A stretch of 64,000 nucleotides of DNA from Thermococcus sp. MAR1. GTDB taxonomy: Archaea; Methanobacteriota_B; Thermococci; Thermococcales; Thermococcaceae. The stretch spans positions 1,054,001-1,118,000 of the forward strand of contig NZ_SNUF01000001.1 in the NCBI RefSeq assembly GCF_012027305.1. The letters are read 5' to 3'. Shown here in pieces: positions 39,325 to 58,544 of this stretch; positions within the stretch are counted from its first letter, which is position 1; each line of letters starts with the position of its first letter. The notes beneath the pieces are model-generated. The model had not been told where the DNA came from and searched no databases. It saw only the letters and a program-made list of their open reading frames with translations. A program made the position numbers and the translations under genes.

Positions 39325-39601
39325 TCAGCATTCGGCCTTGAGAACCTCATGATAGAACTCGATCGGCTTGAGTATCCTGACGACGTGGGTTCCAAGGCTT
39401 AGAGTTTTGTTGTCGCCCCCTCAACTCCAAGAGGTCCTTGTCCCACGTTAGGATGTATTCAGCCTTCGCTTTATAGGCTATACCCAGCCATTTATTATCG
39501 TCCGGATTTCTGGAGAAGTTAAACGTTTCAAAAGAGGGAATCACAACCGAGCCCTTCAGGTATCTCGCTAGGACGACGTTGGTGTCCATAACGACCCTCA
39601 T
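39325..39601 (-). pseudogene. vapC: Degraded VapC-like PIN-domain toxin
   Basis: The start MRVVMDTNVVLARYLKG keeps the first PIN aspartate, and NPDDNKWLGIAYKAKAEYILTWDKDLLEL keeps the later acidic residues, but about 60 residues normally between them are missing. After GRQQ the frame changes: taking one A out of the A4 run near 39412 continues the PIN ending (TLSLGTHVVRILKPIEFYHEVL) to a stop at 39325. So the gene has an internal deletion and a frameshift, and is probably inactive, while the antitoxin upstream looks intact. Confidence 0.7.
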
Positions 39602-39921
39602 TCCCCAGCACCTGTGAGCCTCCGAAATTCCCCTTCAACCTCTTTCAAAACCTTCTCCACTTCCGGCCATTCGTCATCGAATTCTCCCTTGGCCAGCCTC
39701 CTCCGAGCTTCTTCCACTTCGGCTTTAATATCATCTCGTGTGAGCCCTCTGGCCACTTCTCTGGCTTCTTCCAACATTATCTGGCCAAGAGTTACTGTAA
39801 CAGCAAATTTAATAAAATCGGAGCGGCTCCTGAACTCTTTTTTCATTACCAGCTCGTCTATTTTCTTGACCACATATCCCGGGAGTCTCACGGAAATCGG
39901 GTATTCCACCCTCTCCGCCAT
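39598..39921 (-). CDS. vapB: Ribbon-helix-helix antitoxin (VapB-like)
   Basis: A 107-residue protein with an N-terminal RHH DNA-binding domain (YPISVRLPGYVVKKIDELVMKKEFRSRSDFIKFAVTV) and a charged helical C-terminal part that would wrap the toxin (RDDIKAEVEEARRRLAKGEFDDEWPEVEKVL). It overlaps the broken PIN gene by four bases. A TATA-like TTTTAAATACTATT lies about 35 bases upstream. Such antitoxins repress their own promoter. Confidence 0.82.
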   Translation of the reverse strand: MAERVEYPISVRLPGYVVKKIDELVMKKEFRSRSDFIKFAVTVTLGQIMLEEAREVARGLTRDDIKAEVEEARRRLAKGEFDDEWPEVEKVLKEVEGEFRRLTGAGE

Positions 39922-40681: not shown

Positions 40682-40725
40682 AGATTATAAACCTCCAAAG
40701 GCAGGTTGGCATGTTGGTGGAGGTG
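40682..40725 (+). promoter_or_regulatory. Promoter and strong ribosome site at the head of the histidine operon
   Basis: AGATTATAAACC (about 40682-40693) is a TATA box. GGTGGAGGTG at 40716-40725 is a full-strength Shine-Dalgarno sequence, six bases before ATG 40732 and not before hisZ. So the first translated element of this transcript is the short ORF, with hisZ following. Confidence 0.65.
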
Positions 40726-40731
40726 TCAAAC

Positions 40732-40894
40732 ATGAGAGAATCTGAGAGAGCTGACCCCAAATACACCCTTGAGAACCAGATAATAGTCCCTTCTTCCGTA
40801 AGATACTGCCATCATTGACTCTTCTGGAACACCGTTAGACCCGGACAGTTGCACTGTTAATCTCGTGGATAAAGCCCAGGAGGGGTTAGTGTGA
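40732..40894 (+). other. Short leader ORF (28 codons, ending His-His-stop) with a +1-frame continuation to hisZ
   Basis: ATG 40732 opens a 28-codon ORF (MRESERADPKYTLENQIIVP, then SSVRYCHH) that stops at TGA 40816-40818. In the +1 frame the sequence stays open from CAT-CAT-(T)-GAC onwards (DSSGTPLDPDSCTVNLVDKA) and ends at TGA 40892-40894, overlapping the hisZ GTG start by four bases, exactly as neighbouring his genes overlap. Either this is a small gene of about 53 codons broken by one base, or a leader peptide with a regulatory frameshift at tandem histidine codons. I do not recognise the protein. Apart from this the 369-base gap before hisZ holds only promoters. Confidence 0.5.
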
Positions 40895-41781
40895 GAAAGG
40901 GCCTGCTCTTTGAATCCGGGAGACTATCAGAGGTTGGAAAATATCTGAGGAGAACCTTCGAGCTTTGGGGTTATCGGGAGATCTTCCTTCCCGCAATCGA
41001 GGAGTACAGTAAGAATCTGAGAAAGGGAACTAAGTTCGCCTACAACAACGGGTTCTACGTTATAAAACCCGACATAACGTCGCAGATACTGGAGAACATC
41101 AAGGAGCCGCCGGAAAGGCTTAAACTCTACTACATCAGCGAGGTTCTCGACGGTGGTGTAAGGGGGCAGTGGCAGGCGGGGGTGGAGTACATAGGCGGAG
41201 ACGTCACGAAAATGGCCGCCGAGGTGCTCCTCACGGTCATAACCGCCCTCGAAGCGGTGGGGATAGAGGAGTTCTACATAGACATCGGGAGCCTGAAGGT
41301 CTGGGAGGAAGCCACTGAGGAAATAGCAGAGTTCAGGGGAGAAGTCTACAGGGCACTCGTGAGGAGGAACTTCGAGATAATAGAGCGTCTCCCGATAAGT
41401 GGGGAGAAAAAGGAGGAGCTGTGGAGGCTTTTCAACTTCTGGGGAAAGGAGAGCGGTTATCAGAAGCTTGACAGAATAGTCGAGGCTGTCAACGACGAGA
41501 GGCTGTTCATAGACTTTGGCACCGTCAGGCCACTCCCATACTACCGCGACATACTCTTCGAGATTTATTCACCCGAGCTTGGAAAGCCCCTCGGGGGTGG
41601 AGGGGAGTACACCTTCAAAGGAAGGCCCGCCTTCGGCTTTGCCTTTGACATGGGAGCACTCTCGAAGCTCTTCAGAAAGAAAGGAGACCGGAACAGGAAG
41701 AGGCTGAGCGGAGAGCCCAGGGAAGTCTTCACCGAGGCCAAAAGGCTTGTGAGGATGGGCATTCCGGTGGAGGTGGAGTGA
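40891..41781 (+). CDS. hisZ: ATP phosphoribosyltransferase regulatory subunit HisZ
   Basis: A catalytically inactive histidyl-tRNA-synthetase paralogue that activates the short form of HisG and confers histidine feedback. Class II synthetase motifs remain: GYREIFLPAIEEYSK (motif 1 region), ITSQILENIKEPPERLKLYYISEVL (motif 2 region) and GGGGEYTFKGRPAFGFAFDM (motif 3-like). At 296 residues it lacks the anticodon-binding domain of HisS. It starts with GTG behind AGGAGGGGTT. The short HisG follows directly. Confidence 0.9.
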   Translation: MRKGLLFESGRLSEVGKYLRRTFELWGYREIFLPAIEEYSKNLRKGTKFAYNNGFYVIKPDITSQILENIKEPPERLKLYYISEVLDGGVRGQWQAGVEYIGGDVTKMAAEVLLTVITALEAVGIEEFYIDIGSLKVWEEATEEIAEFRGEVYRALVRRNFEIIERLPISGEKKEELWRLFNFWGKESGYQKLDRIVEAVNDERLFIDFGTVRPLPYYRDILFEIYSPELGKPLGGGGEYTFKGRPAFGFAFDMGALSKLFRKKGDRNRKRLSGEPREVFTEAKRLVRMGIPVEVE

Positions 41782-42423
41782 ATGAAGCGTTCCAACGGCT
41801 CTCCAATAAGGTTCGTCCTCCCCAAGGGCAGGCTCCTCCAGGGTTCGCTGGAAGTCCTGAGGAGAGCAGGAATCGAGCTGAGAGCCCCCGCGGAGAGGAG
41901 GCTCATTGAGAGGGTTGGCAGCTACGAGGTTCTCCTTGCGAGGGCATTCGACGTTCCGGTTTACGTTGAGTACGGAATCGATGTTGGCATATCCGGGAGC
42001 GATGTCGTGGAGGAGCGCGGGAGCGACGTCCTAATACCCCTCGAACTTCCCTTCGGGAAGTGCAGGCTCAGCATAGCCATGCCGGCTGATAAGGCCGTGG
42101 AACCAGAGGAGATGGACGGGTATCGGATAGCCACCAAGTATCCGAGGATAACGAGGCGCTTCTTCGAGGGACTCGACGTCGAGGTGGAAATCCTGAAGCT
42201 CCACGGGAGCATCGAGCTGGCGCCGAAGATAGGGATAGCCGACGCGATAGTGGACATCGTCGAGACCGGGAGCACGCTCCGCGCCAACGGCCTCGTCGAG
42301 GTGGAAAAGGTAATGGACGTCTCAGCTCTGCTCCTCGTGAATAGAATAGCCCAGAAGACCAAGTTTGAGGAGATAAACGAGCTCGTCTTTGCGGTAAAGG
42401 AGGTGATTAGGAATGGATTTTGA
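41782..42423 (+). CDS. hisG: ATP phosphoribosyltransferase HisG, short form
   Basis: Catalyses the first step of histidine synthesis, joining ATP and [46 protein letters not shown] and the PRPP loop [18 protein letters not shown] are signatures. The 213-residue length shows the short form without the C-terminal regulatory domain, which explains the HisZ gene immediately upstream. The start ATG touches the hisZ stop codon; the end overlaps hisD by 11 bases. Confidence 0.95.
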
Positions 42424-49638: not shown

Positions 49639-49736
49639 GTTTCCGTAGAACGTAGTCATGTGGAAAGTGGATTAGGGTAGCGCTCCCGCATCGCGGACAT
49701 TTAACTTGTTTCCGTAGGACGTAGTCGTGTGGAAAG
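49639..49736 (+). CRISPR. Orphan mini-CRISPR: two variant repeats and one 40-bp spacer
   Basis: Repeats at 49639-49667 and 49708-49736 are 29 bases each and share the ends GTTTCCGTAG and GTGGAAAG with the main array, but their middle reads ACGTAGTC instead of ACGGTATCG. The two copies differ from each other at two positions (A/G). The 40-base spacer is the same size as those of the main array, 7.4 kb away. No cas gene is next to it. After it, to 49871, I see no gene; a TGATGA...CTGA arrangement at 49800-49821 is noted below. Confidence 0.88.
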
Positions 49737-57112: not shown

Positions 57113-58544
57113 GTTTCCGTAGAACGGTATCGTGTGGAAAGACACGGTATGCGTCGTATCGTCAGGCAGGTTGAGCACGTTGTTTCCGTAGAACGGTATC
57201 GTGTGGAAAGGTAAAAAGCATAGAAAACACAGGGTATGAAACATTGGTTTCCGTAGAACGGTATCGTGTGGAAAGTACTTCGCTATCTCCTTGCTAACGT
57301 CCCAGCGAACCTTAGTTTCCGTAGAACGGTATCGTGTGGAAAGAGCACCTCCGCAATCGCCGCCGCGAGCTCCTTCATCGTGTTTCCGTAGAACGGTATC
57401 GTGTGGAAAGAACTTCGCGTCTTCCCCTGTTATCTCCGCTACGTAGGTTTCCGTAGAACGGTATCGTGTGGAAAGAAGTAACCGGAAGTGGTTCAGTTAG
57501 GTCAACGCATTTAGGTTTCCGTAGAACGGTATCGTGTGGAAAGTTTTTTCTAAGCATTCTCACCGTTCCATTCACAAAAGTTTCCGTAGAACGGTATCGT
57601 GTGGAAAGGAAGAAACCGCCGCCGCTATCGGTATCCTTGGTAATGCAGGTTTCCGTAGAACGGTATCGTGTGGAAAGAGGAATTTTTGAAATCAAATGAT
57701 AAGGTGGTATACTATGTTTCCGTAGAACGGTATCGTGTGGAAAGAGAGGGACGGGACGGTTCAGGGGTTCACAGATGATGTGTTTCCGTAGAACGGTATC
57801 GTGTGGAAAGATCAGCTCCTGAGCATTCATCACCTCAAGGTTCTCCGTTTCCGTAGAACGGTATCGTGTGGAAAGCCAAATTCACTATCGATGTCGTCAG
57901 TAGAAATATATCTGTTTCCGTAGAACGGTATCGTGTGGAAAGTGGTGGGGTAGTTTCAAATCAGTAAACCGCTCCGGTTTCCGTAGAACGGTATCGTGTG
58001 GAAAGTCGGTTAGTTCTATGGCCTCCGCATGTTCATAGTCTTGTTTCCGTAGAACGGTATCGTGTGGAAAGTACCGCCGATGACTTGTTAAGCCCGACAG
58101 GAAAGAAGCTGTTTCCGTAGAACGGTATCGTGTGGAAAGGGGGTTGGGTATCGGGAAAGGCCAAGGTATTGACCAAGGGTTTCCGTAGAACGGTATCGTG
58201 TGGAAAGTGGAACGAGGCAAGGTGTGGCGGAGTGCTCGGAGTGCAGTTTCCGTAGAACGGTATCGTGTGGAAAGACAGCAATTGGGCGGACGTAGTAAAT
58301 TCGTCAGAAGATGTTTCCGTAGAACGGTATCGTGTGGAAAGTTGTTATCTCCCGGTCAGGAGACATGTCACCTATTATTGCGTTTCCGTAGAACGGTATC
58401 GTGTGGAAAGAACTTCGACGGCAAAGTTCCGACGGCTCCGCCCAGCTCGTTTCCGTAGAACGGTATCGTGTGGAAAGGGATACTACTGTAAAGCATAAAC
58501 TGGACATTGATATAAGTTTCCGTAGAACGGTATCGTGTCTCAAA
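57113..58544 (+). CRISPR. CRISPR array, 22 repeats and 21 spacers
   Basis: The 29-base repeat runs GTTTCCGTAGAACG-GTATCGTGTGGAAAG. By my count 21 copies are exact, starting at 57113, 57182, 57247, 57315, 57382, 57447 and so on to 58449. The 22nd (58516-58544) loses the last bases (GTGT then CTCAAA), the typical leader-distal end. Spacers are 34 to 40 bases and all differ. The ends TTTCC and GGAAA can pair into a short stem for Cas6. The array lies between the effector genes and cas1. Confidence 0.98.

Follow-up and report, generated by a model that had tools for sequence, protein, structure and literature searches.

The histidine operon of Thermococcus sp. MAR1 lies on the forward strand of the window, i.e. 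the whole 64,000-nucleotide stretch of genomic DNA analysed here, and comprises nine genes there. The first of them, hisZ (40891..41781), codes for the ATP phosphoribosyltransferase regulatory subunit and begins with a GTG start codon; hisG follows directly, from position 41782. Upstream of hisZ, on the same strand, a leader ORF1 of 28 codons (MRESERADPKYTLENQIIVPSSVRYCHH, 40732..40818) starts at the ATG at 40732, is served by a strong ribosome-binding site (GGTGGAGGTG, 40716..40725) and ends in CAT CAT TGA, exactly as described in the original prediction. The tandem His codons (40810..40815), which are the proposed sensor and shift region, directly adjoin the frame-0 stop TGA (40816..40818). 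It had also been predicted that skipping one base at this stop opens a frame ending in a four-base overlap with hisZ, and this is confirmed: the +1-frame ORF2 (DSSGTPLDPDSCTVNLVDKAQEGLV, 40817..40894) runs from the GAC at 40817 through 25 codons to a TGA (40892-40894) that overlaps the hisZ GTG start (40891) by 4 nt, as GTGA. In the +1 frame, a further stop codon, TAA (40799..40801), is located 11 nt 5' of the first His codon and is called the guard stop below. On the other side of the leader stop, the heptamer CTCTTCT (40819..40825), an instance of CTNTTCT, lies in phase with the His codons, and a segment at the stop itself (40813..40827) could base-pair with the ribosome site of hisZ (about 40873-40891), a feature of the window's clade only. 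Judging from its sequence, the leader transcript has a TATA-like element, TTATAAAC (40685..40692), and its start is expected about 23-25 bp 3' of this element. A second copy of the leader was sought in the genome of the window and none was found, so that the element occurs there once.

Two other features of the window were noted by the way. On the minus strand, at 39347-39921, two small ORFs resemble, by eye, an antitoxin of the VapB type and a PIN-domain toxin of the VapC type, shortened to 84 aa; they are possibly a decayed toxin-antitoxin pair. CRISPR repeats of the Rfam CRISPR-DR41 type are present on the minus strand as a two-repeat remnant (49639-49736) and as a 21-repeat array (57113-58477).

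The hisZ upstream region was compared with that of 46 relatives in which it is readable, drawn from six genera of Thermococcaceae, giving 47 loci with the window. HisG is present in essentially the same genomes as hisZ; in the one genome with hisG only, the gene is cut by a contig end. A leader ORF with a start codon and two to four tandem His codons at or near its end precedes hisZ at all 47 loci, and an SD-like sequence precedes most of the leader starts. A short ORF before the operon that is rich in codons for the operon's amino acid, as is typical of bacterial attenuators, is thus found at 47/47 loci (here with two to four tandem His codons). A TATA-like element is located 31-55 nt 5' of the leader start at each locus, though weak in a few, so leader and hisZ should share one transcript. 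The leader bodies have unrelated sequences between clades, and neither the leader body nor the ORF2 sequence is conserved, unlike the His codons, the stop, the +1 frame and the overlap. Nearly all leader His codons are CAT (115 of 119, with CAC in the other 4), and the His codons of the nine his genes in the window are all CAC (25, with no CAT). For instance, the locus taken to be that of T. kodakarensis KOD1 (L056) has the leader MVERSIKSRVLSMGASLLFKVTYCHHLF and a TTGA overlap. No leaders of this type were seen before trpC, ilvC and homoserine dehydrogenase genes in a limited sample of relatives, and a tandem His leader was not recognised at distant hisZ-like matches in other archaea (L041-L045). 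Collectively, the comparison of sequences identifies the locus, almost certainly, as a conserved histidine leader.

The frame-0 stop directly follows the His run at 34 of the 47 loci and comes one to six codons later at the other 13, the additional codons reading LF, RLF, PF or I, or CRLFYN in one draft genome. It lies no more than 27 nt from the first His codon at every locus, and 24-80 nt separate it from hisZ. In that draft genome (L047, G082) the leader TGA reads TGC, which extends frame 0 to CRLFYN, and the next stop comes soon after; L047 is also one of six loci, with L025, L029, L030, L046 and L048, that carry an extra codon behind the position of the stop (TGA AGG/CAA/CGG CTY TTC). The original prediction had offered a small gene broken by one base as one of its two readings. 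That the locus is the relic of a 53-codon gene, a sequence error or a product of chance is favoured by nothing beyond the view of a single genome. The interruption recurs in 47/47 genomes, an uninterrupted ORF occurs in none of the 46 relatives and all of them keep the frame-0 stop; this reading is already refuted and retains a negligible probability.

At 47/47 loci no stop interrupts the +1 frame between the His codons and the start of hisZ, whereas the same spacer is open in frame 0 at only 8 of 46 loci and in frame +2 likewise at 8 of 46. A conserved open downstream frame therefore continues past a conserved upstream-frame stop, which is the arrangement expected of programmed +1 frameshifting. 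When the spacers were shuffled with dinucleotides preserved, 6.9 of the 13 sequence clusters were expected to be open in +1, as against 13 of 13 observed (product of probabilities 10^-4.2). Neutral evolution was also simulated along the hisZ tree, starting from an ancestor already open in +1. At the hisZ rate, none of 5000 runs left all 46 tips open, the mean being 26.5 of 46, and at half this rate all tips stayed open in 24 of 3000 runs. The simulation is a conservative test, since the real spacer region changes at two to three times the rate of hisZ. On the other hand, purifying selection on ORF2 was not found, the synonymous share of +1-frame substitutions being 0.27 as against 0.24 expected. 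A functional peptide made from ORF2 or from the leader was rejected on this ground, and the lack of amino-acid constraint in ORF2 is what would be expected if only its openness counts. One feature counts against the frameshift reading, namely that the C-terminal block is conserved at the nucleotide rather than the amino-acid level. In ORF2, then, the frame is kept and the peptide is not; it seems to be the frame that matters, rather than a product or a hairpin. Very probably, the +1 frame is translated and matters.

The end of the +1 frame is tied to hisZ in most genomes. When hisZ starts are assigned from their distance to the ribosome site, 33 of the 47 loci show an overlap of exactly 4 nt between the +1 stop and the hisZ start (NTGA, as ATGA, GTGA or TTGA). 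At these 33 loci ten distances from the His codons to hisZ occur, each divisible by three: 51, 60, 66, 72, 75, 81, 84, 87, 90 and 93 nt. At the remaining 14 loci, the +1 frame abuts the hisZ start (0 nt, two loci), enters hisZ by 11-71 nt (eleven loci) or, at L008, is in frame with hisZ; the overlap lengths seen among these loci are 0, 11, 17, 19, 32 and 71 nt. A stop that overlaps or abuts the next start, as it does here by 4 nt at 33 loci and by 0 nt at two of 47, is characteristic of termination-reinitiation. A 4-nt NTGA overlap is the commonest spacing of adjacent genes, and coupling between genes is little or none above 30 nt in both E. coli and H. volcanii (PMC12548453). Because 14 loci are without the 4-nt overlap, precise reinitiation cannot be universal. 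At L008 a 2-nt difference places the +1 frame in frame with hisZ, and a shift there would yield a leader-HisZ fusion instead of reinitiation.

The region around the His codons carries further conserved elements. A +1-frame guard stop is found 8-14 nt 5' of the first His codon at 43 of the 47 loci, and it has been kept through TGA/TAA exchanges and through a move by one codon between clades. Since it would end translation by ribosomes already in the +1 frame, ORF2 could be reached only by a shift within the roughly 20 nt that separate the guard stop from the frame-0 stop and have the His codons at their centre. The conserved CAT CAT is the candidate shift site; a GGTGA-like sequence lies upstream of it at most loci and is absent from the window. 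CAU is not known as one of the classic P-site codons prone to shifting, which counts against such a site. On the 3' side of the His codons, CTNTTCT retains TTCT at 46/46 loci and its first-position C at 45/46, always at a distance that is a multiple of three. The N of this motif is the third position of a frame-0 Leu codon, though the stop precedes it at most loci. A consistent match of CTNTTCT to 16S rRNA was not found in a search for pairing. Two other ways into the spacer were considered. Initiation of ORF2 at a non-AUG codon (ATC or ATT after GGTGAG) is unlikely, since the window and several relatives lack the SD-like sequence, and it is disfavoured also because it would not sense histidine. 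Reinitiation at a TTG overlapping the leader stop (TTGA) was rejected because it would lead into the +2 frame, which is closed at most loci.

RNA structure was examined in the window and across the family. In the window, the pairing of 40813-40827 with the hisZ ribosome site has a predicted energy of -19.0 kcal/mol and ranks first of 166; equivalent pairings of -16.3 to -19.3 kcal/mol are present at L004-L008 and L010-L012, and the pairing is not conserved family-wide. Over the 47 loci, shuffled sequences match the real ones both in how accessible the hisZ ribosome site is and in folding energy (mean percentile 0.51, mean z 0.05), which leaves a conserved RNA structure or a sequestered hisZ ribosome site unsupported as a general mechanism. 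An Rfam search of the window returned no leader family and no His_leader match, and the mutually exclusive hairpins of an attenuator, with a terminator or ribosome-site sequestration, were not found. The second reading of the original prediction, a tandem-His leader that controls hisZ by frameshift or attenuation, is supported by the conservation of the His codons, the frame-0 stop, the +1 frame and the 4-nt overlap, and the alignment of hisZ upstream regions that it had proposed does show two to four tandem His codons and an open +1 frame at 47/47 loci. Of its two variants, frameshifting fits better than hairpin attenuation, since a conserved structure was not found.

The comparison shows the leader, its His codons, the frame-0 stop, the open +1 frame, the guard stop and the 4-nt overlap to be the conserved parts of what is probably a cis-acting histidine sensor working through the reading frame. 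The operon would be transcribed from a promoter about 40-50 bp 5' of the leader ORF. With ample histidyl-tRNA, ribosomes would read the two to four CAT codons, end at the frame-0 stop and leave 24-80 nt before hisZ. When histidyl-tRNA is scarce, they would pause while a CAT codon occupies the A site, and a fraction of the paused ribosomes would slip by +1 onto AUC/AUU codons, thus bypassing the frame-0 stop. That starvation makes ribosomes shift at slow A-site codons is established biochemically. A slow A-site codon matters more for +1 than for -1 frameshifting (PMC5009743). The shifted ribosomes would then translate ORF2, terminate at the TGA overlapping the hisZ start and reinitiate; in the window's clade, translation of ORF2 could also open the pairing over the ribosome site of hisZ. 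The shift itself we infer from the comparison, and starvation at the His codons as the trigger, together with coupling to hisZ as the output, is a reasonably likely extension of it. Further observations count against the scheme. It gives the invariant CTNTTCT no part to play. Initiation at hisZ could take place without coupling, since its ribosome site is strong, and at five loci (L028, L031, L050, L051 and L060) the frame-0 stop lies only about 24-33 nt 5' of hisZ, so that some coupling could occur there without any shift.

The main rival keeps the +1 shift but moves it from a starved His codon to the stop codon, where prfB of bacteria and pheL of E. coli shift; a set fraction of ribosomes would then reach hisZ, and the His codons would act via peptidyl-tRNA or the peptide. 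UGA is a weak stop when C follows, and the junction CAT TGA C occurs at most loci. Moreover, pheL shifts by +1 at CCC_UGA (PMC5009743). However, 13 of the 47 loci have no stop adjoining the His run and yet keep the His codons, and with a shift at the stop, histidine starvation would lower shifting, which is the wrong sign for a biosynthetic operon; we regard this alternative as unlikely. The two remaining explanations dispense with the shift, and both leave the open +1 frame unexplained. In one of them, a ribosome stalled at the His codons exposes the ribosome site of hisZ, as in translational attenuation, or alters folding. Indeed, in the window's clade the leader-stop segment that pairs with this site (-16 to -19 kcal/mol) would be covered by such a ribosome, but the pairing is not conserved elsewhere and accessibility and folding energy at the 47 loci do not differ from shuffles, which makes stalling by itself rather improbable. 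The other invokes transcription attenuation through factor-dependent termination by FttA (aCPSF1), the position of the ribosome at the His codons deciding whether cutting takes place near CTNTTCT. Polarity does exist in Thermococcus and has been attributed to FttA (PMC12548453), and the invariance and pyrimidine richness of CTNTTCT speak for this reading; given a short untranslated gap (24-80 nt) and no conserved structure, termination of this kind appears more doubtful still.

Control through the shifted frame has partial counterparts elsewhere. The bacterial his leader (Rfam His_leader) is likewise a short ORF with a His run directly before the his operon, in which the ribosome is the sensor. 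In bacterial his leaders the His runs are longer and there are alternative hairpins and a terminator, whereas the Thermococcaceae leader has two to four His codons, no Rfam match in the window and no conserved structure; its likely readout is the open +1 frame. The genes prfB (release factor 2) and E. coli pheL share with the proposed mechanism a +1 shift at or beside the UGA that ends a short ORF; prfB serves release factor autoregulation and pheL shifting is regarded as incidental (PMC5009743), while in Thermococcaceae selection keeps the +1 frame open as far as the next gene. Also related is the hungry-codon frameshifting of Gallant, in which a scarce aminoacyl-tRNA at the A site provokes the shift, a phenomenon known from starvation experiments. 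A 2016 review knew of no hungry-codon trans-frame proteins with a starvation-specific function (PMC5009743), and according to a 2014 transcriptome paper on T. kodakarensis, direct experimental support for attenuators or riboswitches at work in vivo in archaea was lacking (PMC4247193). Judged against the open-licence literature, an earlier description elsewhere being possible, the leader may well be, on balance, the first natural regulatory hungry-codon frameshift, an archaeal sensor in which the shifted frame, and not a hairpin or a protein, carries the signal. The comparison of 47 genomes would then point at once to attenuator-like control in archaea and to a use of hungry-codon frameshifting; if true, amino acids would be sensed here in a way not seen before, and archaea would gain one of their few examples of control by a leader peptide, in a family that includes the genetically tractable T. 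kodakarensis. The nearest precedent is the drug-induced frameshifting at the ermC leader, where, under telithromycin, frame-shifted ribosomes translate into the spacer and permit initiation at the next gene (PMC5009743). There the trigger is a drug, the effect is largely independent of the peptide sequence and it acts by unfolding the RNA, whereas the Thermococcaceae leader has tandem His codons, an overlap with the next start codon and an archaeal host.
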